Below the pieces are notes generated by a model, which searched no databases, was not told the origin of the DNA, and saw only the letters and a list, made by a program, of their open reading frames with translations. Positions 27,128-49,217 of a DNA stretch of 64,000 nucleotides are shown here, piece by piece. Both the position numbers and the translations under genes were made by a program. The DNA lies in the IMG/VR virus record IMGVR_UViG_3300018080_000001, positions 62,001 to 126,000 of that record; one strand, given 5' to 3'. The stretch comes from a virus. The first letter of the stretch is position 1; each line of letters starts with the position of its first letter.

Positions 27128-27574
27128 TTAATCTTCCTCAGTTTCACCCAATGCTTTTAAACCTTCTTCTTCCATTTTTTTAAGTCTAGTATAATAATCG
27201 GGTATCTCATTTAAATGATCCAAGGAGATGCGTCGAGAAGTTTCCATATCATCTGTATGCTCGTATTCAACTTCTACCCCCATTGCTAACTCTTTAGGAT
27301 CTACTTCATCTAGCCCAATACCAACTTCATTAGCCCGTCCTGTAGTCAAAAAAATAACATATAATGTAGCCAATTCATAAATGTACTGTTCTATTTTGTC
27401 TACATCATACCCTTCTTCTTCACACCAATCGTGTACCTGATCATCCGTAGGATTAGGGTTATCTTTAATAAATTCTATAATATCTCCGCGTACTTTATCA
27501 TCAGATTTTTGCTGACCATAAAGAGATTTATAAATACGATGAAAACCTTGGTCCCTAATAGTTTTCATTACCAT
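27128..27574 (-). CDS. DUF5661-like small protein with N-terminal basic tag
   Basis: 148 residues. The C-terminal half (DEVDPKELAMGVEVEYEHTD, then SLDHLNEIPDYYTRLKKMEE) matches the pattern of the DUF5661-type family, common in phages and of unknown function. The N-terminus (KTIRDQGFHRIYKSLYGQQ) is a variant of the shared tag ISDxGxxRIAK...Q seen on several neighbours. The helical middle has an acidic helix-turn-helix-like stretch (PNPTDDQVHDWCEEEGYDVD). The start could be the first ATG (27572-27574) or the ATG two codons later. Confidence 0.6.
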   Translation of the reverse strand: MVMKTIRDQGFHRIYKSLYGQQKSDDKVRGDIIEFIKDNPNPTDDQVHDWCEEEGYDVDKIEQYIYELATLYVIFLTTGRANEVGIGLDEVDPKELAMGVEVEYEHTDDMETSRRISLDHLNEIPDYYTRLKKMEEEGLKALGETEED

Positions 27575-27586
27575 TATACTCCACCA

Positions 27587-28039
27587 TCACGTTTGATAAA
27601 TTTCATCGTCATCAATAAATAAATCAACTGTACCAAATTTATCAGCAGCCGCACTCAAAGCATCTCCAAAATCACCCCAATCACCATCCCAAAAACCCGC
27701 TCCATGCCCATTTCTAGTTAACCAAAAATCGTGTCCTGCTCTAGCTTCATCATTTCCCGTAACTTCATATGCTTGAGAAAGGAGTTCCTCATTTTCCAAC
27801 TGAAATTTAGAACAATCTTCTCGCATCTTATCAATAGTTTCACGATTTATATCATCTATACTATAATTTTCATCCAAAGGAACACCACCACTTGGATCAG
27901 ACTCATCATTTGTCGACCACAAGGCTGTTTCCATATATTGTTGAGTAAACTCATCAATTTCCGGAATAACATAACCTTGTGCTACCTTAAGAACTCTATT
28001 AATTCTACCCATACCTGCATCTGAAATACCGCGTTTCAT
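27587..28039 (-). CDS. Small phage protein with ISD tag and GHGAGFWDGDWG domain
   Basis: 150 residues. The N-terminus KRGISDAGMGRINRVLKVAQ is the tag described in the findings. The remainder has the block FQLENEELLSQAYEVTGNDE, then HDFWLTRNGHGAGFWDGDWG and DKFGTVDLFI, a family that I have met in phages and mobile elements without a known function. It is tightly packed between two other small genes (1 base to the next) and preceded by GGAATGAA-like purines. Tag plus unrelated folded domain suggests a delivered or packaged protein. Confidence 0.6.
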   Translation of the reverse strand: MKRGISDAGMGRINRVLKVAQGYVIPEIDEFTQQYMETALWSTNDESDPSGGVPLDENYSIDDINRETIDKMREDCSKFQLENEELLSQAYEVTGNDEARAGHDFWLTRNGHGAGFWDGDWGDFGDALSAAADKFGTVDLFIDDDEIYQT

Positions 28040-28040
28040 T

Positions 28041-28427
28041 TCATTCCTCCAATCTCTTTAGCATCTGCGATAATGCATCTTGTTTATCATAAGGCCACAC
28101 CCAAACTAAGTTATTATCCGCATCCAAAGTACTAAAATTAATATCAAAATAATCTAAGCCCATTTCCAATAGCTGTCCGGCCCTCATTGGCTCTACAACA
28201 ATATCCCTTTGCAATCTTGATCTCAAATCTTCTGCCGTATCCGAATCAGGAACAAAGTATACTTCTCTTTCCCCATTAGGACCTGTTACTATGACTGAAA
28301 AACCTTCAGTATCTTCTATACTACCCGCAGATTCTTCCGATAATGATTGACCTTTTACAATTTTAGCCAACCTTTTAAAATCATTGGAAAATGCTTCCCC
28401 GAAACTTGTGTTCACGCTTCTCCCCAT
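28041..28427 (-). CDS. Small connector-region protein, variant tag
   Basis: 128 residues from the ATG at 28425-28427, which has GGAAG five bases upstream. The longer frame to 28535 would overlap the upstream gene by 97 bases and starts with an unlikely basic, Cys-containing extension, so I chose the internal ATG. Residues 13-25 (SNDFKRLAKIVKGQ) look like the tag of neighbouring proteins. The rest is beta-rich: GFSVIVTGPNGEREVYFVPD, then a helix TAEDLRSRLQRDI and a W-rich end (NNLVWVWPYDKQDALSQMLK). No family recognised. Confidence 0.6.
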   Translation of the reverse strand: MGRSVNTSFGEAFSNDFKRLAKIVKGQSLSEESAGSIEDTEGFSVIVTGPNGEREVYFVPDSDTAEDLRSRLQRDIVVEPMRAGQLLEMGLDYFDINFSTLDADNNLVWVWPYDKQDALSQMLKRLEE

Positions 28428-28438
28428 TTTTCTTCCTT

Positions 28439-29503
28439 TTACCAAACCAATGAAAATGGTCCTACTGGATCTACGTATCGTATATCCATTGTCTGTTGTA
28501 CTATCACATAGGCAAAAGGATCTGAAGGTGACCAACTTGTAACCTTATATCTAGATCCTGTTTGCACACCATCTTTTATCTCAAACAAAACTTTATTATC
28601 TTTTACATATTCATCTTCAGACCCTATTTCAATTGTAGGATCAAATAAAGAAAATCCCGCCGTCCACACTTTTAAATTATCTTGAACAGGCAAATCCGCG
28701 TGCTCACCCTTAGTATTCCTACTAATAGGAATTGAACGCATCAATAATACCCAAGGTCCAAATCTGTACTCTCCACAATCGGATTTTTCCGAATCTGCAC
28801 CACCTAAAGCATCTCCAGAAGATAAATCAATCCTCGCATATCTTGCTCTAACTATCTCAAATGCAGGAGTTATTATACTGGTGGTATCCCGCGTTAATGT
28901 AGCTTTAAACCTTATATTACCGGAAGAAGGATTTACTGTAGCGAGATTGTCTATATCATCCCAAATAATACCGGAATCCAAAGAATATTCAACAACGACA
29001 TTAGATTGTCCTTCAATACGGACAAATGATAAAGCCTGTGATTCCCAAGTAGATCCAAAAGCTGTTCGACTAAATGATTTATCTCCTGATTCTATAGTAC
29101 CTGAAGTAGAAGTAGAAGTTAAAACAACTTTCGCCGATTTGAAAGTCTTTGTTATTTCAACTCCTGTAAGAGTTACATCAGAATCCGTAGCCGACATCCA
29201 CACAGTATCATAACCAAATTTTAAATAACCAGGAACATACCTCTCACCATAGCAAGAGCCACATTTGGCGTCTGATTGCTTATTGGATTGTTTATAACAA
29301 GCGCATTCATTACCACTTTTGACGCCCATCCACATATCAGATCGGATTCCCCCCGCAAGAATCTGCTCTATCAACAATGCTCTTTGAGAGGCATGTTCCT
29401 GTTCTGCTTTTACATGTTTGAAAATATCACGAGACCAAGATCCTGTGGCCATATGACCAAGACCTTCGCAACCATCCGCACCAAACCTACTCCAGCATAC
29501 CAT
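28439..29503 (-). CDS. Virion structural protein with N-terminal Cys cluster
   Basis: 354 residues. After a short helical start, residues about 67-85 hold CACYKQSNKQSDAKCGSCYG (four Cys in a zinc-knuckle pattern), then 'YVPGYLKFGYDT'. The rest is beta-rich with modules such as SNVVVEYSLDSGIIWDD and NIRFKATLTRDTTSI. Cys-rich motifs near the N-terminus occur in head-tail connector proteins. Position between connector genes and the sheath suggests a neck/tail-completion role. A short gene (29503-29679) overlaps its ATG by one base. Confidence 0.5.
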   Translation of the reverse strand: MVCWSRFGADGCEGLGHMATGSWSRDIFKHVKAEQEHASQRALLIEQILAGGIRSDMWMGVKSGNECACYKQSNKQSDAKCGSCYGERYVPGYLKFGYDTVWMSATDSDVTLTGVEITKTFKSAKVVLTSTSTSGTIESGDKSFSRTAFGSTWESQALSFVRIEGQSNVVVEYSLDSGIIWDDIDNLATVNPSSGNIRFKATLTRDTTSIITPAFEIVRARYARIDLSSGDALGGADSEKSDCGEYRFGPWVLLMRSIPISRNTKGEHADLPVQDNLKVWTAGFSLFDPTIEIGSEDEYVKDNKVLFEIKDGVQTGSRYKVTSWSPSDPFAYVIVQQTMDIRYVDPVGPFSLVW

Positions 29504-29679
29504 TATCTTCTCTCAAATGTTTCCTCTATAATCTCGTGTAAGCTTGTATTTTCATAATCGGAATCTTCTAATTTAGCTTTAAAATCTTCCCATTTATCAG
29601 GATCTAATAAATTAATAAAAAATATATTATCATCTTCAGTATCATTATTTAAATTAACTTTTTTATTGTTTATTATCAT
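29503..29679 (-). CDS. Small acidic protein (58 residues)
   Basis: Read by hand: an ATG at 29677-29679 opens a 58-codon frame starting MIINNKKVNLNNDTEDDN and ending IIEETFERR; the TAA shares a base with the ATG of the next gene (TAATG). The product is acidic and helical, with no recognised domain. There is no clear Shine-Dalgarno. The frame exactly fills the gap between two genes and its stop/start overlap with the next gene is the pattern of a real cistron. Confidence 0.65.
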   Translation of the reverse strand: MIINNKKVNLNNDTEDDNIFFINLLDPDKWEDFKAKLEDSDYENTSLHEIIEETFERR

Positions 29680-29692
29680 TAATAAAAATTAA

Positions 29693-30028
29693 TTACCAAT
29701 TCATGGTTTGAGCAAGAATATAATCTTCCTCATTCATCCAATCAGGAACCTCTTTTAAAAGATCATCTGCCTCGTCTCCCTGAAAAAACCATCCGTCATC
29801 AGGATATTCAGGATTATCAATAGCTACATAAGGAAGACCTTGATTAATCTCCACAGTCCAACCTTCAGCTCTGGCTGCTTCTGCACGTTGTTCATAATCT
29901 TTTGCCATATTTTTTATTCGTTCAGCTTTTTCAGGATCTCCACCAGCGGCTTCCATATAAATGTCTTCTTCAAATACTTGTGCTACTTTAGCAATCCTTT
30001 TGAAACCATTATCTGATATACTTTTCAT
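29693..30028 (-). CDS. Small tagged protein (ISDNGFKRIAKVAQ)
   Basis: 111 residues from the ATG at 30026-30028, preceded by AAGGAGTAG six bases away. The longer frame to 30130 would overlap the upstream gene by about 100 bases and lacks a ribosome site, so I chose this start. The N-terminus MKSISDNGFKRIAKVAQ is the clearest copy of the shared tag. The remainder is Glu/Ala-rich helix (EKAERIKNMAKDYEQRAEA) followed by a beta part with Pro/Asp (NQGLPYVAIDNPEYPDDGWF) and ends QTMNW. Function unknown. Confidence 0.65.
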   Translation of the reverse strand: MKSISDNGFKRIAKVAQVFEEDIYMEAAGGDPEKAERIKNMAKDYEQRAEAARAEGWTVEINQGLPYVAIDNPEYPDDGWFFQGDEADDLLKEVPDWMNEEDYILAQTMNW

Positions 30029-30032
30029 TTTT

Positions 30033-30278
30033 CTACTCCTTATATTGAGAACAGAATTTGTTGTCACCTTCAAAATTATATTCAACAACAGGTCGTCCAT
30101 TAAATGGGCAAACATCAAATATACAAGCAAATCTTTTTTCTTTAATTACACTCATTTTCTTTATTTTTTGTAGTGTATACGTACCATTTTTTACCATTTT
30201 ACCGTACACATCAAAATCCCCTACGACACCAGGAGCTGAACAAGTGTCATCTGATAAATTATAAAATCTACAAACCAA
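30033..30278 (-). CDS. Small Cys-rich protein (TTG start)
   Basis: 81 residues starting with TTG at 30276-30278, preceded by GGGGGA at proper spacing. No other start fits. Cys at positions 3, 13, 52, 57 and 76 (CRFYN, TCSAPG, CIFDVCPFNG, CSQYK) could bind zinc. Its stop region contains the AGGAG of the next gene, so the two are coupled. No family recognised. Confidence 0.55.
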   Translation of the reverse strand: MVCRFYNLSDDTCSAPGVVGDFDVYGKMVKNGTYTLQKIKKMSVIKEKRFACIFDVCPFNGRPVVEYNFEGDNKFCSQYKE

Positions 30279-30299
30279 ATTTTCCCCCTAATTTTTCTA

Positions 30300-31199
30300 C
30301 TATCCATTGAAATAATAATTCCTAAATAATGATCCTGTTGGTGAAGAGGCAATAAGGTTATACCACATATAGCCCATTCTCGTCTCAACACTCGCAGTAC
30401 CAGACCTTACAAATTTACGTTTAACTTCTGGTACATATTTATCTAACTCAGCTCTTAACTGATTCATCATCGGATTTAATCCTGAAAAATGCTGTAGTAC
30501 AAAACTATGACCCTGATCACTATATGAAGGTATATCGGTATCAATAGCAAATAAAGACTGCGAAGTAATACCAATATATAAAGAGGCTCGTATAAGAACA
30601 TCAGAAAATTGACTGACAGGAAAGTCATCTAAAGTATTCCAAACAGGGTACGGAGGTCTACCATTTATATAAGAAAGACCTTGCATAAGATATAAAATTA
30701 ACATACTATCACTGTACCCGATATAACAGTACTTCTCTGGAACGTTAGGTTTTATCGATTTATCAATCATCAAACGAAACATAGGCAAAATAGACAAAAC
30801 CTTAGGTGATACAACTTGCATCACTTGTGTTCTATATAAATTTTCTGTATTCTCATTAACTCTAGCATGCCAATTAAATAACGTAGTTCCCGACGTTGTA
30901 GTTTCATCAGGAAGCATTTTTATAGAATATTTTCCTGTAGCATCATGTCTGATACGACTAATAGTCGGTGGTGTAGGTTCTGGCCAGTAAGTATCTGTTA
31001 GTATACTCGTACCATTAGAATCAGTAACTTCTAAATCAAGAGCACCTTTAGAACCAGATGGTGTAGTTTCTTCAACTATATCCACCGGCTTACCCTCAGA
31101 ATCCAGTATAGTAACATCCACCAAACGATATGAATTAGTCCTAGCTAATTCAATCATATTCGCTACAGCAGGAACATCTAGTCCGGGTTCAATAATCAT
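30300..31199 (-). CDS. Head-tail connector region structural protein
   Basis: 299 residues. N-terminal half is beta-rich with Pro/Thr turns (PEPTPPTISRIRHDATGKYS, then FNWHARVNENTENLYRTQVM); the C-terminal half is helical (SMLILYLMQGLSYIN, LNPMMNQLRAELDKYVPEVK) and ends with an aromatic tail (YMWYNLIASSPTGSLF). The long, mixed architecture and the location among the connector genes suggest a neck or tail-completion protein. No family recognised. The stop is 5 bases before the next start region. Confidence 0.5.
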   Translation of the reverse strand: MIIEPGLDVPAVANMIELARTNSYRLVDVTILDSEGKPVDIVEETTPSGSKGALDLEVTDSNGTSILTDTYWPEPTPPTISRIRHDATGKYSIKMLPDETTTSGTTLFNWHARVNENTENLYRTQVMQVVSPKVLSILPMFRLMIDKSIKPNVPEKYCYIGYSDSMLILYLMQGLSYINGRPPYPVWNTLDDFPVSQFSDVLIRASLYIGITSQSLFAIDTDIPSYSDQGHSFVLQHFSGLNPMMNQLRAELDKYVPEVKRKFVRSGTASVETRMGYMWYNLIASSPTGSLFRNYYFNG

Positions 31200-31204
31200 C
31201 GTAT

Positions 31205-31426
31205 TTAAAAAGAACTTAAATGAGTCTCCGATAAACTCTTTACTTTAGCCAGAAACTCCATGTACGCAGAATCCAACCCTTCTCGTACTTCCGCATCTAA
31301 CCAAGACGGTAGATCTTCCCAAATAGGTTCAATTGCGGTATATAAACGAGAAGAAAGACCCTCCATAGTTTGTTGTGAATTTAAACTCTTAGCCACACGA
31401 CGTAATCCCTTGTCAGAAATAGACAT
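31205..31426 (-). CDS. Small tagged protein (MSISDKGLRRVAKSL)
   Basis: 73 residues. N-terminus MSISDKGLRRVAKSLNSQQ is a close match to the tag on the proteins at 27587, 29693, 32640 and 48840. The remainder is one helical stretch (RLYTAIEPIWEDLPSWLDAE, then LDSAYMEFLAKVKSLSE) with no catalytic motif. It is one of the shortest tag carriers, so the tag makes up about a quarter of the protein. GGAAGG precedes the ATG. Confidence 0.65.
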   Translation of the reverse strand: MSISDKGLRRVAKSLNSQQTMEGLSSRLYTAIEPIWEDLPSWLDAEVREGLDSAYMEFLAKVKSLSETHLSSF

Positions 31427-31437
31427 ATTTCACCTTC

Positions 31438-31818
31438 CTAATCTCCTAGCAATGCCACCACCACGTTCGCATCCACTGGAGTTGCTGTAATTGTTATTGC
31501 CGTAATACCTGCCTTATAAAACATCATAGCGCCATCAGCGGCTATATTGAAAGTATCTGTGCCACCGTTTAGTACAACCTGAATAGCAGCGTCAGTACCG
31601 ACATAAACCATATCGGCAGACGCTACAGTACCAAAAGGAATCGCAACAGGTGCGCCTGTAACTATTTTATAAGAATTAGCACCACCTTCATTATAAGTTA
31701 ATTGGGGACCTGTCGTATCCGAAGATGTGATAGTAGGTGCTCCCAATATTACAGATGTATTAGCCCCACCTGTTACCGTCGGATACGCAATAGTTCCGGT
31801 TAACGTTGCTGTAGCCAT
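31438..31818 (-). CDS. Small beta-rich virion protein (decoration-like)
   Basis: 126 residues, rich in Ala, Thr, Val and Gly with regularly alternating strands (TGTIAYPTVTGGANTSVILG, then APVAIPFGTVASADMVYVGT) and almost no charged residues. Small, uniform, low-charge beta proteins of this kind are typical of phage decoration or fibre-tip proteins present in many copies. It is located in the lysis/connector block. No family recognised and no start problem (GGAGCATATAAA before the ATG). Confidence 0.5.
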   Translation of the reverse strand: MATATLTGTIAYPTVTGGANTSVILGAPTITSSDTTGPQLTYNEGGANSYKIVTGAPVAIPFGTVASADMVYVGTDAAIQVVLNGGTDTFNIAADGAMMFYKAGITAITITATPVDANVVVALLGD

Positions 31819-31819
31819 T

Positions 31820-32643: not shown

Positions 32644-32849
32644 TTATAAACATATTCACTAACAATACGCATTAGCTCGTCTTCCGGTATACTCTGCAAT
32701 ATAACCTCTAAAAAAGCAGTATCACCCACTTCGTTCCTAATTTTTTCTACAAAGTTAAAAGAATCTTCAAAAATATTCTCCTGTCCTACCAACTTCAAAC
32801 TACCGGCTATCCTACCTAAAGCATTGTCCGAAATACCTTTATTCAACAT
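32640..32849 (-). CDS. Small tagged protein (NKGISDNALGRIAGSL)
   Basis: 69 residues from the ATG at 32847-32849, preceded by AAAGGAGAGC at proper spacing; the longer frame to 32870 has no such site and runs into the holin-like gene. The N-terminus is a tag copy (ISDNALGRIAGSLKLVGQ). The rest is a short acidic helix (FVEKIRNEVGDTAFLEVILQ) ending IVSEYVYK. It lies within the lysis group (overlaps the holin-like gene by 11 bases and the next gene by 4), so its expression is coupled to theirs. Confidence 0.6.
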   Translation of the reverse strand: MLNKGISDNALGRIAGSLKLVGQENIFEDSFNFVEKIRNEVGDTAFLEVILQSIPEDELMRIVSEYVYK

Positions 32850-33186: not shown

Positions 33187-33196
33187 GTCCTACCTC

Positions 33197-34590: not shown

Positions 34591-34596
34591 GGGGTT

Positions 34597-34629: not shown

Positions 34630-34638
34630 AGCACCCTT

Positions 34639-35859
34639 TTACTTAACTCCCTTGGCCACAGCCTTACTATTGGCGCAACCGAAAGAAACCAATTCACAGA
34701 ATGACCAACCCTTAACAGTTTCCATATTGGCGTACTTATTAAAGGGTTCGCTAAACAGATCCATTCGAATACCCATCTCACCAAAATACTCAGAAGCCGT
34801 ACAGGCATAGAAAGTACCGGCCGGAATGACTTCCTCAACACCAATACCCGCAGCCGTAAGAATCTGAGCACTTAGGATATTCCCGATATGTCCAGCTAAA
34901 ATCAACTCACGCTCAGTTACAGGATCAACAGCCGTTGACATCGTAGTAATAATGTCAGAAAGCTCCGCACGATTAATGAAGAACTTCTCCACCATCAAAC
35001 GATGCCGCTCAACTTGAAAACGAACAGCCTCAAAAGCTGCAATACCCAACGTGGCATAAGTCGTCACGGTGTTAATCGCGGTTGAAGCGGCATCCGCCAG
35101 AGCAATACCGAGTTTATCCTCCTGAAGCTCAATCTCTTGACGGGCAGTATCCTGCGCACGATCAAGAACATCAAAGTTCAGATGATAGATATCTGCGATA
35201 TCCACGGTCGGAAAAGAGGTAATCTTGTCCTCTTTAGGGGTGATCCATTTGGACTTAATCCTTGATTCCGGAGTCTGCCCGTCCTGACCAACAACCCAAG
35301 CAACCGAACGAACATCTACAGGAATACGGAAAAGTTCACCTTGAGCAACATCTCGCACTCTATACCACTTACGAGCAAAACCTTCGTAATCAAGAATTTG
35401 CTTAATAGGATATGCAAGCTCTTGCCCAACAACATGCCAACCCGCGTCAGATGTTCGATCAGTCAAAGCAGCTGCAAGAATTTCTCGACGCTGCTCCGGA
35501 CTCATAGTCTGAGAGGGATCATCAGGATTGTATGGACGCAGGGAACTTGCTTCCTTAGACGTGGTATTAAGAAGCTGGCGAATCTGCACAAGTGCGTCTT
35601 TCGCGTCATCAGCGTTAATCTGTCCTTCTTTATTGAACATCTTATCGCCGACAGCTGCTTTCACATCACGCGGAGTATAGCTGTAACGCTGCGGATTATA
35701 CTGTCCGTTCTCATCATACAGCTGCTCATCCTTACGAGAAGTCAACCGTTGCTTAGGACGCATGTGTACACGTCGTTGTTTGCCCTTAGTAGCTCTCCTA
35801 GCCGACGTAGAAGGGGCAGGACGATTACTATTACTGATGCTCTTATAGGGATTACCCAT
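34639..35859 (-). CDS. Major capsid protein (HK97-fold type, inferred)
   Basis: 406 residues. The N-terminal 40 residues are basic and Ser/Pro/Arg-rich (probably a removable delta-like or scaffold-binding region), followed by a helix (KDALVQIRQLLNTTSKE), a stretch PYNPDDPSQTM and the main beta/alpha part (VGQELAYPIKQILDYEGFAR, then FPTVDIADIYHLNFDVLDRA). The size, the position after scaffold and protease genes, and the strong terminator directly after it are those of a capsid gene. 'VEKFFINRAELSDIITTMST' and 'AGTFYACTASEYFGEMGIRM' correspond to the P-domain spine helix and following strand in jumbo-phage capsid proteins. No fold proof was possible. Confidence 0.85.
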   Translation of the reverse strand: MGNPYKSISNSNRPAPSTSARRATKGKQRRVHMRPKQRLTSRKDEQLYDENGQYNPQRYSYTPRDVKAAVGDKMFNKEGQINADDAKDALVQIRQLLNTTSKEASSLRPYNPDDPSQTMSPEQRREILAAALTDRTSDAGWHVVGQELAYPIKQILDYEGFARKWYRVRDVAQGELFRIPVDVRSVAWVVGQDGQTPESRIKSKWITPKEDKITSFPTVDIADIYHLNFDVLDRAQDTARQEIELQEDKLGIALADAASTAINTVTTYATLGIAAFEAVRFQVERHRLMVEKFFINRAELSDIITTMSTAVDPVTERELILAGHIGNILSAQILTAAGIGVEEVIPAGTFYACTASEYFGEMGIRMDLFSEPFNKYANMETVKGWSFCELVSFGCANSKAVAKGVK

Positions 35860-35873
35860 CGTACTACTCCTTT

Positions 35874-36680: not shown

Positions 36681-38747
36681 CTACTTACGCATATCTCCAA
36701 GTTGCCTGCCCAATTTAGTAGACGTAAGCGCGTTGCTAATTTCATCAAAATTTGTTTCATGAGGAATACTGACAGGTTCCTCTGTTTTCACATTAAAATT
36801 CCCAGAAGACAATTTTTCTCTCATACTTCTGGAATCTCTGCTCGCCACTACATTATCATTCGTTTCCACTGGAGTAGGAAACAGTCCTTCAATATCTTTC
36901 TGTACATCATTCAGATAAGAATCATCCTTTTCCAAAAGATCCGCTGCTTTGGATAAAAGATCTTCAACAAAGCTATCATGACCTTCTTGTGCAATAAGCT
37001 CAATCAATTCTACGGCTGTTCTCTGGTCCATTCCCGTATAGATTTCACCATCAGAAAATTCAACCGCACCTTCATTAGCCGCTAGAACATCAGCCATCGC
37101 AACTTTATAACTATTTGGATAATGATTTAACTTCATCCTAGCAGATGCAATCCGTACACATTTAGAAAACTTATGAGCAAACTTTTCAACTTGCTCTTGC
37201 ACTAATTTCTCAGCACGAGCTTGATATAGTTTCTTATAGTTATCTTCTAATTCAGCTGTTTTGAAATCCACTTCAGCTTCATCCAAAGAAGACTCCTCCG
37301 GCTTATCCGGCTCCTCTTTAGTATCAGTATCCGACTCATCCGTAACACTCATATCCCGAGCATCGCCAATACCTTCGGGCTTTTCCTCGGTAACAACTTC
37401 AATATCATCCTCGATACCGCCCAACTTCTTATAACGTGCTACCGTCTTCTCTTTGGATTTTCTCTCTTTAACTTTTTCTTTTAACGATACTTTAGTAACT
37501 GTTGGTTTCTCCTCAGTATCTGTATCCATTTCCTTCAACACATCAGATTCGCCCTTATCCAGCTCTTCTCTAGAATCCGTATCGCCGCCCCCAGTAACAG
37601 GCTCATCCACTGGAAGGACTTCACCACCTGTAGTCTCTATATCTTCATCCACTCCCGCTTTAAGCAAACGGGAACCGCATAACTCAGCGGCTTTACTCCA
37701 ACCATCACGTATAATAACGCTCTTAACCTTATTAGCTAATTTAGCCAAAGCCTTTTTATCCGCTTTAACTTTCTTATTAGTAAGACCGAAAAACATGGGG
37801 CCATGATCTTCATGGTGCGCAGCTATGTTCCCTTCTTTCGTAATCACAATTTTAGATTTCTTAGCCCGAATGAGTTGTTCTCTATCCAAACCCATCTCAT
37901 CCACCGTAGGCATTTTCTTATCTTCTTCTTTCAATTCCCTAAGCTTTTTCATTTTATCTTCTTTATCATCCTCGTCCTTATCCTTATCCAGCTTAGGTTT
38001 ATCTTTATCCTTTTTATCCCTATCCTTTTCGTCTTCTTCCTCTTCCGCCAGCATGGGTGGAGTACTAACAGGAGGTGGCGTTGACATATCCTGTACCGCT
38101 TGAGCAGACTTAATCCGGGCCAAAGCAATAATATATTTACGAGCCTTACCCATTAACTTCTTTACTTCATCCTCATCACGATCTTCAGATTTTTCATCAA
38201 TCTTCTTTAAATCTTTTACCTTCTTCTCTAGTCCTTCTTCCTCTTTCTTTTCCTTCTTCTCTTCCTTTATTTCTTCCTTCTCTTCTTTCTCTTCTTTCTT
38301 ATCTTCTTCACCCAAAATTAATTTAGCTGCACTCATTATTTTCTTAAGTTCTTCTTTATCGCCTTTTTCTAATTCTTCTTCCTTACCTTCCAACTCCTCA
38401 AGAATTCCTTCTAGTTCTCCTGCACCTTCTTCAATATCTTTTTTCTTATCAATTTCTTTTAACTCCTCTTTAGCTTCGCCCTTATCCTCTTTAGAAAGCA
38501 TTCCCTTTTCCTTCATAAACTCCACCATAAGATCAAATGCTTCTTCAGGATCTTCAACATTCCGCAACTTAGCCAAGCAACCTTCAAAGTCCTCTGGCAT
38601 TTTAACTGCACTACGCCGAAACATAGACTTCCGAATTAAATCTTGTGTCTGACTTTCAATAACACTTCGATCAGACGCGCTTAATTCGATATCTCCGCGA
38701 TTGAATATATCTGCTACAGTCCTAAATAGTTCGATTTTATGATCCAT
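36681..38747 (-). CDS. Prohead scaffold / core protein
   Basis: 688 residues from the ATG at 38745-38747, which follows AGGAG by 8 bases; the longer frame to 38783 runs into the protease end. The sequence is dominated by Lys/Glu-rich coiled coil (residues about 95-190 and 225-300, e.g. EGILEELEGKEEELEKGD). Low complexity, large size and location between the protease and the capsid gene are those of a phage scaffolding or internal core protein, made in excess and removed by the prohead protease. 'ALARIKSAQAVQDM' near residue 210 is a candidate cleavage region. Opposing frames inside are shadows. Confidence 0.75.
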   Translation of the reverse strand: MDHKIELFRTVADIFNRGDIELSASDRSVIESQTQDLIRKSMFRRSAVKMPEDFEGCLAKLRNVEDPEEAFDLMVEFMKEKGMLSKEDKGEAKEELKEIDKKKDIEEGAGELEGILEELEGKEEELEKGDKEELKKIMSAAKLILGEEDKKEEKEEKEEIKEEKKEKKEEEGLEKKVKDLKKIDEKSEDRDEDEVKKLMGKARKYIIALARIKSAQAVQDMSTPPPVSTPPMLAEEEEDEKDRDKKDKDKPKLDKDKDEDDKEDKMKKLRELKEEDKKMPTVDEMGLDREQLIRAKKSKIVITKEGNIAAHHEDHGPMFFGLTNKKVKADKKALAKLANKVKSVIIRDGWSKAAELCGSRLLKAGVDEDIETTGGEVLPVDEPVTGGGDTDSREELDKGESDVLKEMDTDTEEKPTVTKVSLKEKVKERKSKEKTVARYKKLGGIEDDIEVVTEEKPEGIGDARDMSVTDESDTDTKEEPDKPEESSLDEAEVDFKTAELEDNYKKLYQARAEKLVQEQVEKFAHKFSKCVRIASARMKLNHYPNSYKVAMADVLAANEGAVEFSDGEIYTGMDQRTAVELIELIAQEGHDSFVEDLLSKAADLLEKDDSYLNDVQKDIEGLFPTPVETNDNVVASRDSRSMREKLSSGNFNVKTEEPVSIPHETNFDEISNALTSTKLGRQLGDMRK

Positions 38748-38763
38748 CTTCGGTGCTCCTATG

Positions 38764-39672
38764 TTACCGAGGTTGAAGTGCATGATTCAGTATACTAGCC
38801 ACCGACCCGGGAATGGTTTCGGCATGCTTAACTACAAAATTTGCGATTTCTTGCAAATCGTTTTTATTAAAATTCTTATTACTGGCCGCTAAACTAAGAA
38901 TATCATCTTGAATTTCAGCCGTCTCATCAGCCGGGTCATCAACCGCAGAAATCTCTTGGAAAATAGTTCCCATACACTTTTCCCAAGCCAACCGCATTGA
39001 TCCATCTTTAGCCTTAAGCGGCATTCTGGCATGTTTTCCACGGACGCATTTACATAATTCAAAATCTGTAGTAGCTACGTTGCCGCATACTGCGCACTCC
39101 GTAGCAACAACATCACAACCCATAGAAAATTTTCTTACAGATCCACTCTTATACGCACTAGCAAGAGCTGGATCTTTTGTAGTATCTACGCCAATAAGCA
39201 ACTCTACAAAAACGTCCCGATCAACGTCTTTACCCAAAGCCTCTTTAACTGCTCTTTTAACAGTGTCATCAGCAGCATTCTGAGTATTGAGATGGCTATC
39301 TAATATAACACCACGACTTAATTTAAGATCGGAAGCATTATGGTTAACAAAATGAGGCTTTAAGTTATAAGTCTTATAAACTTGACTAGCAATTATATCA
39401 TCAAACCGCTCTAATTCAGCTTGTTCCCAACCATCCAAATTATTATTTGGACGGTCAGCACTATTTGCCCGAGCAGGAATAAAAATATAATCCCTTGGAT
39501 CTCTACTTATAACGTAAGCATCCGCAACAGAATCTAATGCAGCCTCAACATTCATATTCACTCCATCTTCCATATAAAAAGATGAAATTTTTGATGAAGC
39601 AGATTTAGATCTGGACCATGAACCATTATGTCGGAAACCTAATGGCTCCCACTGTGATATTTTTCTGAACAT
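38764..39672 (-). CDS. Prohead maturation protease
   Basis: 302 residues. A helical start, then NLKPHFVNHNASDLKLSRG with H111 in NHN, later VFVELLIGVDTT, KFSMGC (S183) and a Cys cluster (CAVCG at about 193-197, CKC at 207-209). His plus the Ser in a 'xFSMG' turn is the arrangement of phage prohead proteases (T4 gp21/HK97 protease families). The Cys pairs may bind zinc. It is placed just before the scaffold and capsid genes, as expected. Such enzymes digest the scaffold and trim head proteins. ATG follows AAGGTAG by a short gap. Confidence 0.75.
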   Translation of the reverse strand: MFRKISQWEPLGFRHNGSWSRSKSASSKISSFYMEDGVNMNVEAALDSVADAYVISRDPRDYIFIPARANSADRPNNNLDGWEQAELERFDDIIASQVYKTYNLKPHFVNHNASDLKLSRGVILDSHLNTQNAADDTVKRAVKEALGKDVDRDVFVELLIGVDTTKDPALASAYKSGSVRKFSMGCDVVATECAVCGNVATTDFELCKCVRGKHARMPLKAKDGSMRLAWEKCMGTIFQEISAVDDPADETAEIQDDILSLAASNKNFNKNDLQEIANFVVKHAETIPGSVASILNHALQPR

Positions 39673-40070: not shown

Positions 40071-40073
40071 AAT

Positions 40074-40190: not shown

Positions 40191-40197
40191 TTTTGCC

Positions 40198-42953: not shown

Positions 42954-42956
42954 CTA

Positions 42957-43490: not shown

Positions 43491-43556
43491 TTTTAATTAC
43501 CTCTTTAAAGTTTTTATTATAATATACTTTTTAAAAAACATAGACTTATTAGAACT

Positions 43557-45575
43557 CTAACTCGTTGAAGCACTAAAATCACTATAGTATACCACAATTC
43601 TCACTTTCATATCATCTACAGTAACATTAGAATCTGTAGTAATCGTTAATGTAGTGGCGCTACCATTAGCAATGGGTAATTGAGTTCCATCATTTCCTCC
43701 CGGAGAAACCGCAGTATTTCCTAAAGATACACCCGCATTTTGAATTAATTCATCAGCATTTCCACTACCCGTGATACCAACATCATAATTAGTCGCACCA
43801 CCTCCAGCTGCATCTGTACATCTTACTGTCACTCCCCAAATTAATGAATTTGCAGGAGCTAAATTACCTGAAGTTGCAACTCCTCCTGCACCTTGACCAA
43901 CTGCAATTGTAACCTCTTCAGAAACCCATTGACACCCTAAACCACAAGATGCAGCATTTTGCCCACCAACAGAATAACCCTGAACAACAAACAATTCGTC
44001 CGTTCCTGGATCACTAGCACTAGTACCAATCCACACACCATCACCAATAGAAATAGTTCCTCCTTGAGAATTATTTCTAGTTGCAAAAACCCTTACTATA
44101 CCATCCTGCGTCCCGACACCATTAGTTTCACATTCTACTTCAATTTCTCCATATGTACACTGAGAAGGCGTAGCATTTTGACCAAAAAATCTAATGTGGC
44201 ATATATCACCTACACCATGAGCACTACCATTAGTCACAAATAAATAAGCATCCCCAGAACCATTATATACTGTAGTTGTAGGAGCAGATAATGAACCATT
44301 ATAACCAATAGAAAAACCTAACACAGAATTACAAGAAATACCTAAATAATCATTAAATATTCTGTATAAACCTAATCCCGTATCATCAAAGAATTTTATC
44401 GCAGGATCACTCTCAGTGCCGGGCGGTGCATAGTAATAACCGTCAGTATCTATATACGCCACATTAGCTTCATCAGAATCCCGCCAGACCTGAATATTAG
44501 TTGAACCGTCATTAGTAGATCCTTTTACAATTAATTTACCAATCGCCGGTGTCCCGTCAAAATCTGTAGTTCCTATACCAACATTTTCTCCTGATATAGA
44601 CATCCGTGTAGCAAGAGATCCACCAGAACTAGTCTTAAAATCTAGTCTACTTTCTTCACTGGCCGCTGTATGATTAATACAATAATTAGAGATACCTGAA
44701 TATACATAAGAAGTCGGTGTACTATTCATTCCGATAAAAGCTATACTAGAAATATCTGTCGCAGAACCATGTGCATTTGTTGTTAATAAATTTAAATAAG
44801 CTTGACCGCTAGCATTATATACATTCGTCACAGGAGAACTCGTACCTGTATCATAATTAACAACTAAACCAGTAACTTGATTAACCGTAACTCCTACAGC
44901 ATCTCCAAACGTGGTAGCGTTATATAACCCATTATTAGAATCACTCTCCCAGGCTATCGATGGTGCAGCAGAGTTACCGTCCGCGTATTTACCTATTCCT
45001 TTTACTAAAGTATCACCACTGCTATCAATAATTAACTTATCAACTGCATTCTGTTTTATACTCAATGCTGTATCAGAGTTATCATCCTTATCGTACTCTA
45101 AAACTAAATTAGTAGCAGTACCTCCATTTTCTAATGTAATACCTTCAGCCTCAACAAGCATAGTTGTCAAAGCTTCAATATTCATAGACGTAGTAGACTG
45201 TATTTCAATTGTTGTCGTCGCTTTAAGTTCAGCCGTAGCAGTAGATTTTAAACTTAAAGCAGCTCCAGTTCCCGTTGATTTGAGGGTAAGTGCTGCACCA
45301 TCGACACTCCCCACAACACCGGCATCGTCCCCATTACCAGAAGTATTAGAAATAAGAAGATTTCCGTTCGTTCCATTTACCCAAAAATCATTGCCACCCA
45401 TCGCAAAATTAACATCCGTGGCAGGACTTATATTAATATCCCCGGAAGAAACTGTAGAAATATCTAAATCTCCACTTGCAGAAGGAGAAATATTCCCCGC
45501 ATATAGAGTATTTGCATCAGCAACACGTGTATACTTTCCACTATTTAAAGTAATAGGATGTCCACTCGCTGACAT
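43557..45575 (-). CDS. Tail fibre / virion structural protein A (shares N-terminus with next gene)
   Basis: 672 residues. The first ~25 residues (SASGHPITLNSGKYTRVAD) are nearly the same as those of the gene at 45588-47027, which suggests a common attachment tag. Then come Asp/Ser/Thr-rich repeats of the type 'LSLKSTATAELKATTTIEIQ', a fibre shaft, and several beta modules such as SRLDFKTSSGGSLATRMSIS and NIQVWRDSDEANVAYIDTDG. The C-terminus has QWVSEEVTIAVGQGAGGVAT, a receptor-binding tip type. It lies beside the portal, away from the baseplate genes. Confidence 0.6.
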   Translation of the reverse strand: MSASGHPITLNSGKYTRVADANTLYAGNISPSASGDLDISTVSSGDINISPATDVNFAMGGNDFWVNGTNGNLLISNTSGNGDDAGVVGSVDGAALTLKSTGTGAALSLKSTATAELKATTTIEIQSTTSMNIEALTTMLVEAEGITLENGGTATNLVLEYDKDDNSDTALSIKQNAVDKLIIDSSGDTLVKGIGKYADGNSAAPSIAWESDSNNGLYNATTFGDAVGVTVNQVTGLVVNYDTGTSSPVTNVYNASGQAYLNLLTTNAHGSATDISSIAFIGMNSTPTSYVYSGISNYCINHTAASEESRLDFKTSSGGSLATRMSISGENVGIGTTDFDGTPAIGKLIVKGSTNDGSTNIQVWRDSDEANVAYIDTDGYYYAPPGTESDPAIKFFDDTGLGLYRIFNDYLGISCNSVLGFSIGYNGSLSAPTTTVYNGSGDAYLFVTNGSAHGVGDICHIRFFGQNATPSQCTYGEIEVECETNGVGTQDGIVRVFATRNNSQGGTISIGDGVWIGTSASDPGTDELFVVQGYSVGGQNAASCGLGCQWVSEEVTIAVGQGAGGVATSGNLAPANSLIWGVTVRCTDAAGGGATNYDVGITGSGNADELIQNAGVSLGNTAVSPGGNDGTQLPIANGSATTLTITTDSNVTVDDMKVRIVVYYSDFSASTS

Positions 45576-45587
45576 ATTAAATCCTTC

Positions 45588-47027
45588 CTACAAACTAACA
45601 GGTTCACCTAAAACAATTACGATTGTACGACTAGAACCTGATCCTGTATCCAACGAATATCCTACTCTCTGGGATTCCCCCGACGTAGGAGCTGTACTCG
45701 TAACTTCACCATCTGTACCAGACATATAAACAACTTGTCCGACAGTCCAAGCTCCAACATCCGACGTAAGAACAGTGGATTTACCAGAACTTTTAATACT
45801 TACAGAAGCACCGCCAGCTACTCCAGTTTGAGCTACGCCAACAACAAAATTCTGATTTGCCGTGTCTTTATTAGCCTTAACAATTTTTCCGGTGGCTGAT
45901 CCATCATCGGCAGACACAATATCGTATTGGGTAATAGCTTCATCCGCTGTATCCGACCACACGCCAACATCAGTTATCTCGCCCTTAAGCTCGTTAAGAC
46001 CACCTATAATAGAAGTCGCAGTAAAACCACTTAAAGAAGTGTCCCCCGCTTCATTCAACGTTATAGTAGCCGCACGAGCACCTAAAGTAAGATCAGCAGC
46101 CGCTCCAGAAACAGTAAAATTGGACGCACTGGTAGCGTCCAAAGCAATGTCAATTCCGTCAACATCAACAGAATTAGCATTACCATTAATTGTTACCCCG
46201 CCAACACCATTCAAAGTAATTACACCTGCTAATGTAGCGGTTAAAGTTAAATTCGTATTCACCGTAGTCCACGTAGAAGCAGCAGCCGCATTCAAAGCAA
46301 TACCCGCTGATGTATCTAAATTAATAGTAGAAGCATCAATATCAACAGAAAGATCATTTGCGCCACCTCTCAAAAATTTAGCATGATCTGTACCATTCAG
46401 CACCTGAAAACCGTCTGCTCCCGTACCGGGAATAGCAGATAAATCAACTGTAAAAGAGTAATCACCAGTAAGATTCCAAATAGTATCATAAGCATCTACA
46501 GTAATCGTAGCCCCGTTATTATAACCGTCGTCCAAATCCCAGGTAGATGCCGCCGCAGTAGACCAAGAAGCCCCATTCCACCATTGCAAATCATTAGATC
46601 CATCTATTCTTATGGCTCCAGTTTCACCCACAGAACTACTAGGAAGAACCAGCACACCCGTACCAGTTACCCTTTCAAAACGCACATCAATTGCAACCAA
46701 CACAGATAGATCACACTTTAAAGAGGCAGAATCGCTACTACCGCCACCAATAGATATAGAGTCTCCAGAATTATCACCAAGAGTGACATTACCATTAAAA
46801 GTAGCACCACCCGTAACAGTTTCCGCACCGTCAACAGCTAAATCGCCTAAAACTCTAGTTATTCTTCCTACAGTACCTAACTTTAGCTCTCCGGTACCAT
46901 TGGCAAGAACCAATAAATCTAAATCCGTGGTATTAGGTTGAACAACACCAACATATAAAGTGTCTGTTTCAGCAACCCTAGTATACTTTCCACTATTTAA
47001 CGTAATTGGATTTCCACTTGCAGACAT
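45588..47027 (-). CDS. Tail fibre / virion structural protein B (shares N-terminus with previous gene)
   Basis: 479 residues. N-terminus SASGNPITLNSGKYTRVAET is almost the same as in the gene just downstream. The centre is a Thr/Ala/Val beta shaft (NLTLTATLAGVITLNGVGGV). The C-terminal ~60 residues hold GAWTVGQVVYMSGTDGEVTS, then QRVGYSLDTGSGSSRTIVIV, a module also seen at the ends of the genes at 47367 and 52416. This last module is probably the receptor-facing or trimerising end. Frames on the other strand are shadows. Confidence 0.6.
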   Translation of the reverse strand: MSASGNPITLNSGKYTRVAETDTLYVGVVQPNTTDLDLLVLANGTGELKLGTVGRITRVLGDLAVDGAETVTGGATFNGNVTLGDNSGDSISIGGGSSDSASLKCDLSVLVAIDVRFERVTGTGVLVLPSSSVGETGAIRIDGSNDLQWWNGASWSTAAASTWDLDDGYNNGATITVDAYDTIWNLTGDYSFTVDLSAIPGTGADGFQVLNGTDHAKFLRGGANDLSVDIDASTINLDTSAGIALNAAAASTWTTVNTNLTLTATLAGVITLNGVGGVTINGNANSVDVDGIDIALDATSASNFTVSGAAADLTLGARAATITLNEAGDTSLSGFTATSIIGGLNELKGEITDVGVWSDTADEAITQYDIVSADDGSATGKIVKANKDTANQNFVVGVAQTGVAGGASVSIKSSGKSTVLTSDVGAWTVGQVVYMSGTDGEVTSTAPTSGESQRVGYSLDTGSGSSRTIVIVLGEPVSL

Positions 47028-47357
47028 TTAAACCCCCCTAACTTTTTTATCTAGATTTTTTATATTTTTCTTTTTGCCTAAAATTCTGCCTTTAACACGA
47101 GAAGACTTTTCTTCCATAAATAATTTATTCCTAGCAACCCAAGGTTCCCCATTAATAAAAATAGGAGGTGGCACATAGTTTTCTAAAGCTTTTTTCATTC
47201 TTAGATCTTCAACCTCTAAAATCTCTCCCGGCTCTATAATAAATTCTTCTTTTTTTCCGTCTTCCGTAGGCAATCTAATCTTTATCTTAGAACCTGTACC
47301 ATCCCAGTCTTTAGCAAATACCGACATTTTATCAGAGACTTTAAACTTCGTACCCAT
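47028..47357 (-). CDS. Small fibre-region protein
   Basis: 109 residues. Starts GTKFKVSDKMSVFAKDWDGT, beta strands with Lys/Glu (EEFIIEPGEILEVED), then an aromatic loop (NYVPPPIFINGEPWVARNKL) and a very basic tail (KGRILGKKKNIKNLDKKVRG). Possibly a fibre adaptor or chaperone. No family recognised. ATG follows a short gap after the next upstream gene. Confidence 0.5.
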   Translation of the reverse strand: MGTKFKVSDKMSVFAKDWDGTGSKIKIRLPTEDGKKEEFIIEPGEILEVEDLRMKKALENYVPPPIFINGEPWVARNKLFMEEKSSRVKGRILGKKKNIKNLDKKVRGV

Positions 47358-47366
47358 TGATAAACC

Positions 47367-48065
47367 TCAATTAAATAAAGGTTCTCCGAAAGAGAACGCA
47401 AAAGTTGTGGCATTCTTTACATATCCAACAGATTGAGATATAGTTCCCGCCGCTGTAACGGGTGTTGCAGTTATTGCACCGTCAACACCTAAAAAATATT
47501 GCGTTCCTGGGGTTAAAGCTGCAAAACCGCCAATTATAACATCCTTGGAAATATAACAAGTAGTGCCCGTAGGTTTATTATATACTACAGATAAAGCAGG
47601 TCCAAAATTAGCCCCCGCAGCATTAGATGCAAATTTAACAGTATCTGCAACAGTATCTATCTGAACCACATCACCGACAGCAACACCCAACGGACAATTA
47701 TATAAGCCCATGCCACTGCCAACAAGAAGATTATAACTCACTCCAGTATCATCAGTATACCACAAAGAAAAACCCGGACCTCCTGTGTTGTCTACCCATA
47801 CCGTAGGATCTCCTGGAGTACCCGGATTAGCGGCTTTACCCAATGGATCAAAAGACACACCACCAAGACCAATACAAGGATCGTTGTCTATACCAAGTTT
47901 TGCCTCAATGTTTTCGATTGCTTCATATCCACTGTTTTGGTGATCTACGATCACCTCATCAACGCCATCAAGAAGACGAGGAAGAAAACTATCTAAAGAA
48001 GTAGGATAAACACTGCCGCCATAAACTGTAGTCATATTCTCACCATTCCATACATAGGCATACAA
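47367..48065 (-). CDS. Fibre-like structural protein with shared C-terminal module
   Basis: 232 residues (start could be the ATG 10 codons in, before MTTVYGG). The N-terminal part has a helix (EVIVDHQNSGYEAIENIEAK), the centre PGTPGDPTVWVDNTGGPGFS and the C-terminus LTPGTQYFLGVDGAITATPV, then SQSVGYVKNATTFAFSF, a version of the module at the ends of the genes at 45588 and 52416. Phage fibre or decoration role. It is the first minus-strand gene left of the divergent gap at 48066-48253. Confidence 0.55.
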   Translation of the reverse strand: MYAYVWNGENMTTVYGGSVYPTSLDSFLPRLLDGVDEVIVDHQNSGYEAIENIEAKLGIDNDPCIGLGGVSFDPLGKAANPGTPGDPTVWVDNTGGPGFSLWYTDDTGVSYNLLVGSGMGLYNCPLGVAVGDVVQIDTVADTVKFASNAAGANFGPALSVVYNKPTGTTCYISKDVIIGGFAALTPGTQYFLGVDGAITATPVTAAGTISQSVGYVKNATTFAFSFGEPLFN

Positions 48066-48189
48066 GTACCTAGTAGAATTCTAATTTAAGTCTAACATGT
48101 AATCTCGTAGGGAATTTTAAATATAGTACTATATAGTAAGGAATATAAGCTCAGTACGGCATTAACTATAACATAAAAAAATAAAAAAT
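48066..48189. promoter_or_regulatory. AT-rich divergent control region
   Basis: About 120 AT-rich bases between the minus-strand fibre group and the plus-strand promoters. It holds a 14-base palindrome (48121-48134, ATATAGTACTATAT) followed by AGTAAGGAA, akin to the box at 33701-33722. The two flanking genes diverge, so promoters in both directions are expected here; only the plus-strand one (48190-48230) is recognisable. Confidence 0.4.
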
Positions 48190-48230
48190 ATATCTCAGTA
48201 TATTGACAGCTTAAAAAAGTGTATTATATT
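48190..48230 (+). promoter_or_regulatory. Sigma70-type promoter P1, copy 1 of a 28-bp repeat
   Basis: TTGACA at 48203-48208, 16-base spacer, TATATT at 48225-48230, then GGAGAA before the ATG at 48254. The 28 bases at 48190-48217, including the -35 box and TCAGTA upstream of it, recur exactly at 48442-48469. A perfect -35 with conserved flanks suggests that host polymerase transcribes it, perhaps early. Confidence 0.8.
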
Positions 48231-48253
48231 TTATATAACACAAGGAGAAAACA

Positions 48254-48436
48254 ATGAAAATCAGAAAAACAGAAACATTGAAAAAAGAAAAATACACCTT
48301 CAAAATATATAGAGAAGGCCAATACTGGTATGCAGATATTCACAGAAAAAACGAAGAAACCTGCACTAGAAAATGGGGATGTACCACAACAAAAAAGAAA
48401 ATTTTAGAGTATATTAATCACTTTTGCAAAAAATAA
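48254..48436 (+). CDS. Small basic protein, plus strand, own promoter
   Basis: 60 residues, highly basic (KIRKTETLKKEKYTFKIYRE) with Cys at positions 37, 43 and 58 (CTRKWGC, FCKK). AAGGAGAAAAC precedes the ATG. The aromatic/charged pattern suggests a small nucleic-acid- or protein-binding factor (KYTFKIYREGQYWYADI), similar in style to phage host-takeover peptides, but no family is recognised. It is one of only two plus-strand genes in the window and has a sigma70-type promoter of its own. Confidence 0.65.
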   Translation: MKIRKTETLKKEKYTFKIYREGQYWYADIHRKNEETCTRKWGCTTTKKKILEYINHFCKK

Positions 48437-48441
48437 AAAAC

Positions 48442-48483
48442 ATATCTCAGTATATTGACAGCTTAAAAATTAAGTACTATGTT
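48442..48483 (+). promoter_or_regulatory. Sigma70-type promoter P2, copy 2 of the 28-bp repeat
   Basis: TTGACA at 48455-48460, 17-base spacer, TATGTT at 48478-48483, then AAAGGAGAAA before the ATG at 48507. The 28 bases at 48442-48469 are an exact copy of 48190-48217, 252 bases apart. It lies between the two plus-strand genes, so each has its own promoter. Confidence 0.8.
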
Positions 48484-48506
48484 TTATTTAACAAAGGAGA
48501 AAAACA

Positions 48507-48833
48507 ATGAAAAAAATAACCAGCATAGATGAAGTCCGCATCGCAAACCAAGACGTGGCAAACGCTGTTCTTATTAGAATCACAACAAAACGAGGATCTG
48601 TTCCAGGAATGCCTTGGTTTGGATCTAGACTACATACTATTACTACGCTTGGAGATTGTCATACTAGAGTAATAGAAGGTTTTCTTCTGGAAGCTGTAGC
48701 TGATTTGGTTAGTGAAAATAAGATCAAAGATGTTTCTGCCACTGCATTTATAGAAAACTACAAATTTAATTGGGAACTATCTTGGGTAGACTGCACTGAT
48801 GGTCAAAAACACCTCTTAGTATCGCCAGAATAA
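48507..48833 (+). CDS. Small protein resembling gp46/gp25-type wedge proteins, plus strand
   Basis: 108 residues. The core SIDEVRIANQDVANAVLIRI, then TTKRGSVPGMPWFGSRLHTI and a helix GFLLEAVADLVSEN followed by a final strand pair (FNWELSWV) is like the Mu gp46/T4 gp25 wedge family: 'RG-x-P-x-x-P-x-FGS-L' followed by a helix. Its own sigma70-type promoter and opposite strand are odd for a structural protein, so it may have been recruited to another role. It ends 6 bases before the stop of the convergent gene at 48840. Confidence 0.45.
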   Translation: MKKITSIDEVRIANQDVANAVLIRITTKRGSVPGMPWFGSRLHTITTLGDCHTRVIEGFLLEAVADLVSENKIKDVSATAFIENYKFNWELSWVDCTDGQKHLLVSPE

Positions 48834-48839
48834 AAAGCG

Positions 48840-49217
48840 CTACTCCAACCTCTCGTACTCATACCTATCTCGTAAATTAGTCCATATAAATTGACCTTTA
48901 GACGGTGCAGCAAAAAACTGATCAAACACTTCGGGCTCAACATTATAATAACCGTATAAAGATTCTGGCCTGTTTCCTTTGGCTAAAAATCTTACATACA
49001 AAATTTGGTTATCATCGTCATACCCAAATTCTTTTACATTAGAACTTTCAACAGGATACATCGTTGGAAACTGATCACCAGTTTCCTCCTCTACAACCTG
49101 CTCCGCATCCTCTACAAACTGCTCTTCTTCATACAAAGGTGTTTCATATTCCTGTTGAGCCATTTTATAACCTACTGTTGAAGCAATACGCTCCAATGCT
49201 GAATCAGATAAACTCAT
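48840..49217 (-). CDS. KTSC-domain protein with N-terminal tag
   Basis: 125 residues. N-terminus MSLSDSALERIASTVGYKMA is a variant of the ISDxGxxRIAK tag. Residues about 60-125 match the KTSC pattern: VKEFGYDDDNQILYVRFLAK, then GYYNVEPEVFDQFFAAPSKG and a final IWTNLRDRYEYERL. KTSC domains are small, often attached to other domains, and of unclear role. Stop lies 6 bases from the convergent plus-strand gene. Acidic linker in between. Confidence 0.65.
   Translation of the reverse strand: MSLSDSALERIASTVGYKMAQQEYETPLYEEEQFVEDAEQVVEEETGDQFPTMYPVESSNVKEFGYDDDNQILYVRFLAKGNRPESLYGYYNVEPEVFDQFFAAPSKGQFIWTNLRDRYEYERLE

Follow-up and report, generated by a model that had tools for sequence, protein, structure and literature searches.

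In bacteriophage T4, the internal proteins carry propeptides of 10-19 residues that bind the core and are removed by gp21 after L/I-x-E, and the first 10 residues of IPIII suffice for head targeting (PMC9026906). The three proteins Ip1-3, which have only this leader in common, block different type IV restriction enzymes (PMC12373910). Related routes are described in P1, where the first 30 DarB residues are enough for loading of a reporter (PMC9024508), and in SPN3US, where a T4-gp21-type protease removes N-terminal propeptides, mostly of 111-254 residues and some of only 20-24, from head and ejection proteins at A-x-E (PMC10052503). Packaging and injection have also been proposed by Iyer et al. 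for the polyvalent proteins of phages and conjugative elements (PMC5512222). Here we describe a short N-terminal sequence (hereafter the tag; consensus MKxxGISDxGLxRIAxxVKxAQ) shared by otherwise unrelated small proteins in a 64,000-nucleotide stretch, the window, which covers bases 62001-126000 of the 170,099-bp virus record IMGVR_UViG_3300018080_000001. The tag is probably a capsid-targeting sequence, T4-like in its working, that loads accessory and counter-defence proteins into the prohead.

The likeness to T4 lies in organization. As with IPI, IPII, IPIII and the Alt propeptide, a short shared leader heads unrelated small proteins in a phage that encodes a prohead protease, the cargo includes anti-restriction functions, the genes are variable and lie partly outside the head cluster, and the same unbiased search finds both systems. 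The leaders themselves, MKTYQEFIAE/A in T4 and the consensus given above, are unrelated in sequence when the T4 IP and Alt N-termini are compared directly, and the tag profile had no match among the T4 genes examined, so the tag is not homologous to the T4 leader. Cleavage follows L/I-x-E in T4 and putatively [AGS]Q here, and three T4 internal proteins stand against 10-17 tagged proteins in the best-covered genomes of this study. P1 DarB is similar in that N-terminal residues send an anti-restriction protein to the capsid, although that signal was shown for DarB alone (PMC9024508) whereas one consensus heads about a hundred proteins here. The SPN3US/phiKZ head system likewise combines N-terminal propeptides with a T4-gp21-type protease (PMC10052503), but SPN3US differs in its A-x-E cleavage and mostly long propeptides.

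A shared N-terminal tag on unrelated proteins

The source genome (G000), which was compared over its full length with relatives retrieved through its protease and major capsid protein (MCP), is that of a large tailed phage whose late genes lie on the minus strand; the tagged phages all come from metagenomes. Gene starts are predictions refined from upstream ribosome-binding sites, and some lie slightly inside the listed open reading frames (ORFs): 30028, not the TTG, for gene 29693, 32849 for 32640 and 28427 for 28041. The seven genes for which the original prediction claimed a shared N-terminus are all present, six with a clear tag and 28041 with a variant:

27128..27568, minus strand: tagged protein 1, tag MKTIRDQGFHRIYKSLYGQQ (codons 27509-27568), DUF5661 body, profile score 20.9 bits
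27587..28039, minus strand: tagged protein 2, tag MKRGISDAGMGRINRVLKVAQ (27977-28039), phrog_1915 body (1.9e-32 from residue 27)
28041..28427, minus strand: variant-tagged protein 3, tag MGRSVNTSFGEAFSNDFKRLAKIVKGQ (28347-28427), start and upstream GGAAG read from the sequence
29693..30028, minus strand: tagged protein 4, tag MKSISDNGFKRIAKVAQ (29978-30028), profile score 30.8 bits, ribosome-binding site aggag, body without assigned family
31205..31426, minus strand: tagged protein 5, tag MSISDKGLRRVAKSLNSQQ (31370-31426), small body, profile score 29.2 bits
32640..32849, minus strand: tagged protein 6, tag MLNKGISDNALGRIAGSLKLVGQ (32781-32849), small body, profile score 28.7 bits, ribosome-binding site aaaggag
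48840..49217, minus strand: tagged protein 7, tag MSLSDSALERIASTVGYKMAQQ (49152-49217), KTSC body

The domain labels given earlier to two of the bodies hold, with Pfam E-values of 4.1e-18 for DUF5661 (residues 80-135 of the 27128 product) and 4.2e-16 for KTSC. The variant tag of 28041 has about 10 extra residues, and its body has no match in Pfam or PHROG. Across the whole genome the motif is more widespread than first noted: ten genes are tagged by profile, six in the window and four more at G000 6849-9473, and the 28041 variant is an eleventh. Among the ten, not one pair of bodies matches by blastp at E<=1e-3, in agreement with the original description of the bodies as unrelated. A Pfam KIX_2 hit on the 29693 tag (E 4e-5, under the Pfam cut-off, in 1 of 96 tagged proteins) was treated as chance.

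Over 102 non-redundant tagged proteins, and with the Gly of GISD numbered 0, the conserved columns are 0 (Gly, 86), +1 (Ile/Leu, 96), +2 (Ser/Thr/Pro, 85), +3 (Asp, 62), +5 (Gly/Ala/Ser, 101), +6 (hydrophobic, 101), +8 (Arg, 97), +9 (Ile/Leu/Val, 101) and +10 (Ala/Ser, 95), with +13 mostly hydrophobic. The tag usually starts with M-[KR]-[LKR] and is 16-23 residues long. This column pattern is that expected of an N-capped, basic, amphipathic helix.

Specificity was assessed with a profile of 12 columns and a cut-off of 16 bits, each genome being scored with a profile trained on the other genomes only. In the source genome, nine matches lie no more than 8 residues from an ATG; the other 95,761 windows scored contain none, and neither its reversed nor its shuffled ORFs give a match at >=16 bits. 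Counts near the ATG and elsewhere are 15 and 0 in the relative G002, 11 and 0 in G003, 10 and 0 in G008, and 13 and 1 in G013. Because the training set was first gathered by motif search, the leave-one-out result speaks for specificity and N-terminal confinement, not for the function of every member. An unbiased search for pairs of genes whose similarity is confined to residues 2-25 returned 32 pairs in the source genome, as against 7 and 13 for control segments, and 79 in G002, as against 9 and 5; in T4, the positive control, it retrieved IPII/IPIII (score 54; runner-up 33). Part of the 32 pairs may come from a second family, with the N-terminus MKxLGK, for which reason the weight is placed on the profile test, the cleaner of the two.

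By DNA pattern, the tag is restricted to one clade. Two degenerate DNA patterns of the tag matched only within it among 2.9 million IMG/VR contigs, and a third had no match in 84,980 cellular species genomes. Divergent tags nevertheless head homologues of tagged proteins in G018 (MSIHGLFVKFDKIADKVVEQEE), G021 (MKFFLNDKNYKKIAEALSKTS), L110 (MKFFLDNSNYKRIAEVLNKTS) and one G019 gene (ADAIQRIA); exact patterns miss these, and the tag is thus probably older than the clade visible to the profile. One apparent tagless homologue, that of an ADP-ribosyltransferase (ART)-like cargo in L134, was rejected and dropped as an untagged example, since its frame extends upstream to a divergent tag, MKFFLNDKNYKKIAEALSKTS.

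Modularity of the tag and its bodies

As shown by a survey of 16 related contigs, the tag heads many different domains: 104 tagged proteins fall into 82 body clusters (blastp E<=1e-3), seven of them with more than one member. Tags are more alike within a genome than between genomes (0 of 2000 permutations), and tags on homologous bodies in different genomes show no greater likeness (mean BLOSUM score 22.2) than those on unrelated bodies (25.3), so that tags track the genome rather than the body. Simple paralogy, with duplicates diverging everywhere except at the N-terminus, would account for the few bodies related between genomes and for the recent tag copies present in G008 and G013. It was the alternative that the original prediction itself had raised, and it can be set aside almost entirely: the bodies do not align, they belong to families as different as ArdA, GNAT, KTSC and DUF5661, and untagged homologues elsewhere start where the tag ends, so that paralogy is already refuted for most. 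Homologues of the 27587 body start at its residue ~22 in Cronobacter phage JC01 and ~26 in Klebsiella phage phi1_175008, at the tag end, and the ArdA domain of a G014 protein starts at residue 28, directly after the tag.

The conserved stretch always lies directly after the start codon, as would also be expected of a nucleotide signal (a translation enhancer, or a regulatory or recombination site) of which the peptide is a by-product. However, where tags agree in a residue, they also agree in its codon in only 37% of cases in the source genome and 30-53% elsewhere, which indicates selection on the peptide, and conservation is at the amino-acid level with helix periodicity. We regard a nucleotide signal as very improbable.

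Bodies also occur in both free-standing and fused states. For 19 tagged proteins, the body recurs deep inside larger ORFs of these phages (350-2183 aa), and in one 672-aa protein (G008 complement 179694) two tagged-protein bodies are adjacent in one chain. Another case is the KTSC body of 48840, which is 75% identical to the C-terminal domain of a homologue, in G002, of the adjacent gene:

49219..50613, minus strand: neighbour of the KTSC gene; the G002 homologue carries a C-terminal KTSC fusion, both products matching the same G002 ORF by blastp

KTSC is also fused to a larger protein in G011 and G012, whereas the source genome encodes it separately, under a tag of its own. On the simplest reading, a split-off KTSC would need its own address if both halves must share a destination. 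Polyvalent proteins are comparable in that they contain overlapping kinds of domain (ArdA, ParB-like), and the 19 embedded bodies recall their architecture, but their domains are joined in one fused chain whereas each domain here has a tag of its own.

Two further arrangements were seen. Tagged proteins at G013 1-1134 and 1815-2549 (L079) and at G003 99271-100932 enclose a further complete tag, in frame and with a separate ATG and ribosome-binding site; fusions of two tagged proteins and overlapping starts are candidate readings. Large multidomain proteins with a common N-terminal domain (NGWSIxIDxxDxVVxWPPxGD) hold tagged-protein bodies at G000 22174-24531 and in ORFs reaching 153594 in G002 and 80617 in G003.

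Proposed capsid loading and its alternatives

The tagged genes of the window lie around the head genes, including the prohead protease that the original prediction had recognized nearby and that PHROG identifies as a head maturation protease:

34639..35859, minus strand: MCP, by phrog_2522 (2.3e-57) and synteny; start of the conserved late operon
36681..38783, minus strand: long acidic protein between protease and MCP; probable scaffold or core and candidate tag receptor
38764..39672, minus strand: head maturation (prohead) protease, phrog_18299 (1.3e-29); candidate for tag removal

Between the MCP and the tail sheath, relatives have in common a backbone of about eleven gene families, and tagged genes fill slots in it that vary from genome to genome, making up the majority of inserted genes in the tagged phages. 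Such variable insertion into a conserved late backbone marks them as accessory genes of the late operon and implies late expression. The same position, between MCP and sheath and among neck genes, would suit loading into the tail or tail tube, in the manner of extracellular contractile injection systems, whose cargo has an N-terminal packaging signal. However, in phages the tape measure normally fills the tail tube, some tagged proteins are longer than 400 residues, and the core and protease route has a direct precedent in T4; we give tail loading little chance.

Part of the cargo can be identified. Pfam and PHROG assign DUF5661 (five members), GNAT acetyltransferases (three), phrog_1915 (three), ArdA, DUF5662, KTSC, DUF7249 and a ParB-like domain. 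The ArdA of G014 (L160:4953-5720) matches PF07275 over residues 28-191 at 118.4 bits (cut-off 27; 5.8e-34). The phrog_1915 gene lies inside the terminal repeat of CcrBL9 and near the genome end in several mycobacteriophages, a location that by inference fits an early role in those phages. PADLOC gave no matches on the tagged proteins, NCBIfam an acetyltransferase and weak matches only, and PDB sequence searches nothing useful. The G008_168538 family, which resembles an ART by eye only, has no Pfam, PHROG or PDB sequence match, and its AlphaFold model (pLDDT 41) was too poor for use.

Taken with these data, capsid loading would proceed as follows. Late in infection, the tagged accessory proteins would be made alongside head and neck proteins. 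The tag would fold as a capped basic amphipathic helix, with a Ser/Thr-Asp cap, hydrophobic residues at 1, 6, 9, 10 and 13 and a near-invariant Arg at 8, and would dock on the core of the prohead, where the acidic scaffold is its probable partner. Removal of the tag by the prohead protease may follow, probably after [Ala/Gly/Ser]-Gln near the tag end; the freed cargo would stay in the head, enter the next host with the DNA, and there counter restriction or other defences or modify the host. Any gene could thus gain head delivery by acquiring a tag. The 36681 protein is conserved in its N- and C-terminal regions and acidic and variable in the middle, with no family match in Pfam or PHROG; its position and conserved ends suggest that it is probably the scaffold or core. 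In the protease, S183 is invariant and H127 nearly invariant across 12 relatives. Its AlphaFold model (pLDDT 46) was too poor to confirm the fold, and a PDB comparison of the model came back empty and was not used.

A candidate cleavage motif occurs at the tag end. An [AGS]Q dipeptide between +10 and +22 occurs in 67 of the 102 tagged proteins, compared with 7 and 11 in two equal-length downstream windows, while [AGS]E shows no enrichment (22, compared with 21 and 18). Gln exceeds background 7.1-fold at +11 and 6.6-fold at +16, and acidic residues come next. A leader that is short, basic and apparently removable could also be a degron or a solubility or processing sequence with no role in localization, but that would leave late-operon insertion, the cargo spectrum and clade restriction unexplained, and we consider it a slim prospect.

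Tagged genes also occur in clusters far from the late operon, at G000 6849-9473, G002 11.5-14.0 and 46-50.7 kb, G003 85-101 kb, G008 163.9-170 kb and G017 125.6-127.8 kb. Such remote clusters (those of G000, G002 at 11.5-14 kb and G008 in particular) would suit a tag that docks on another phage hub, such as a replication complex, the membrane or a host-takeover complex, with the proteins acting in the producing cell and never entering the virion; a helix of this short, basic, amphipathic kind could have many binding partners. Such docking is countered by the tagged genes inserted into the late head-neck operon, by anti-restriction cargo, whose greatest use is as DNA enters the cell, by the [AGS]Q at the tag end and by the KTSC fission-plus-tag event beside structural genes. 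We judge docking on another hub to be unlikely, while taking it seriously.

Several observations count against capsid loading itself. Many tagged genes are far from the head genes, though the same holds in T4, where ipII, ipIII and ipI lie at 65.4-73.9 kb, away from head genes at ~93-109 kb. Neither head protein offers a conserved [AGS]Q site: the scaffold-like protein has none, and the MCP has only a non-strict candidate, F[DN]xxG[QE][VI]NA (a G[QE]/[IV]NA site). Characterized T4-type proteases, those of T4, phiKZ and SPN3US, cleave after Glu, not Gln (PMC9026906, PMC10052503). One third of the tags lack [AGS]Q, which leaves cleavage at the final Q a hypothesis. Most bodies have no assigned function, and injection is thus argued from a minority of the cargo. 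An unbiased search of four distant cultured relatives (Rctr197k, RHph_N46, Myrna and BcepSaruman) gave no clear excess of shared N-termini, and for the tagged clade we found no virion proteomics and no known host.

Insertion into the late head-neck operon, ArdA cargo, homologues that start after the tag or lie within multidomain proteins, and [AGS]Q favour loading, and on this balance we hold capsid loading to be the probable function. What the sequences establish is the tag, its modular use, its insertion into the late operon, its restriction to a clade and the identity of part of the cargo, whereas helix, docking, cleavage and injection are inferred. The original proposal of a prohead-loading tag is supported in part: the shared leader on unrelated bodies near a prohead protease holds, loading is probable, and cleavage around the final Q is hypothetical. 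A broader version is offered tentatively, and we lean against it: the tag would be a modular, general code for import into the head, combined with a protease specificity that is new (Gln at P1). Any accessory protein could then join the injected set through one short helix, and 10-17 counter-defence or takeover proteins would be delivered as individually tagged domains, where other phages use fused polyvalent proteins.

Injected phage proteins are known for few model phages only. If capsid loading is correct, a recognizable leader would allow the injected proteins of an entire uncultivated clade to be read from its sequences, and about a hundred such proteins would be predicted in the contigs read, most of them functionally unassigned and likely to act within minutes of infection. 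A second capsid-targeting system, unrelated in sequence to that of T4, would become available for comparison, as would a candidate tag with which to load proteins into phage heads.

Other shared N-termini and neighbouring genes

The second shared N-terminus, MKxLGK, is found on about 49 small proteins outside the window, in two clusters near the record ends (G000 1300-16394 and 153623-168998; L019, L024 and L025), many of which continue in degenerate xSVxxSV repeats (DSVWDSVWDSV). A similar family, MKNLKKEIRDQV, occurs in G021. In a more distant relative (L142 14184-17005; MCP 48% identical), the leader MRKEKIASELIKIAEMLVTAQ heads three or four paralogues that are rich in repeats and follow the head genes; this leader is possibly a differently worded tag. 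Within the window, two adjacent long, probably fibre-like proteins (43557-45575 and 45588-47027) have the N-terminus MSASG[HN]PITLNSGKYTRVA in common, and the remainder looks different.

The portal homologues of G003, G006, G008, G009, G011 and G012 are split by long in-frame insertions of several hundred residues, which are probably inteins. The late genes of the window also include one for a protein with a nucleotidyltransferase-like GNWDRFHCGHEYIL motif (51845-52414). Elsewhere in the window, an ORF at 62773-63969 has histidine-kinase ATPase motifs (HEIKN, DDGPGIK and GSSGLGLFL) after a stretch resembling membrane segments.

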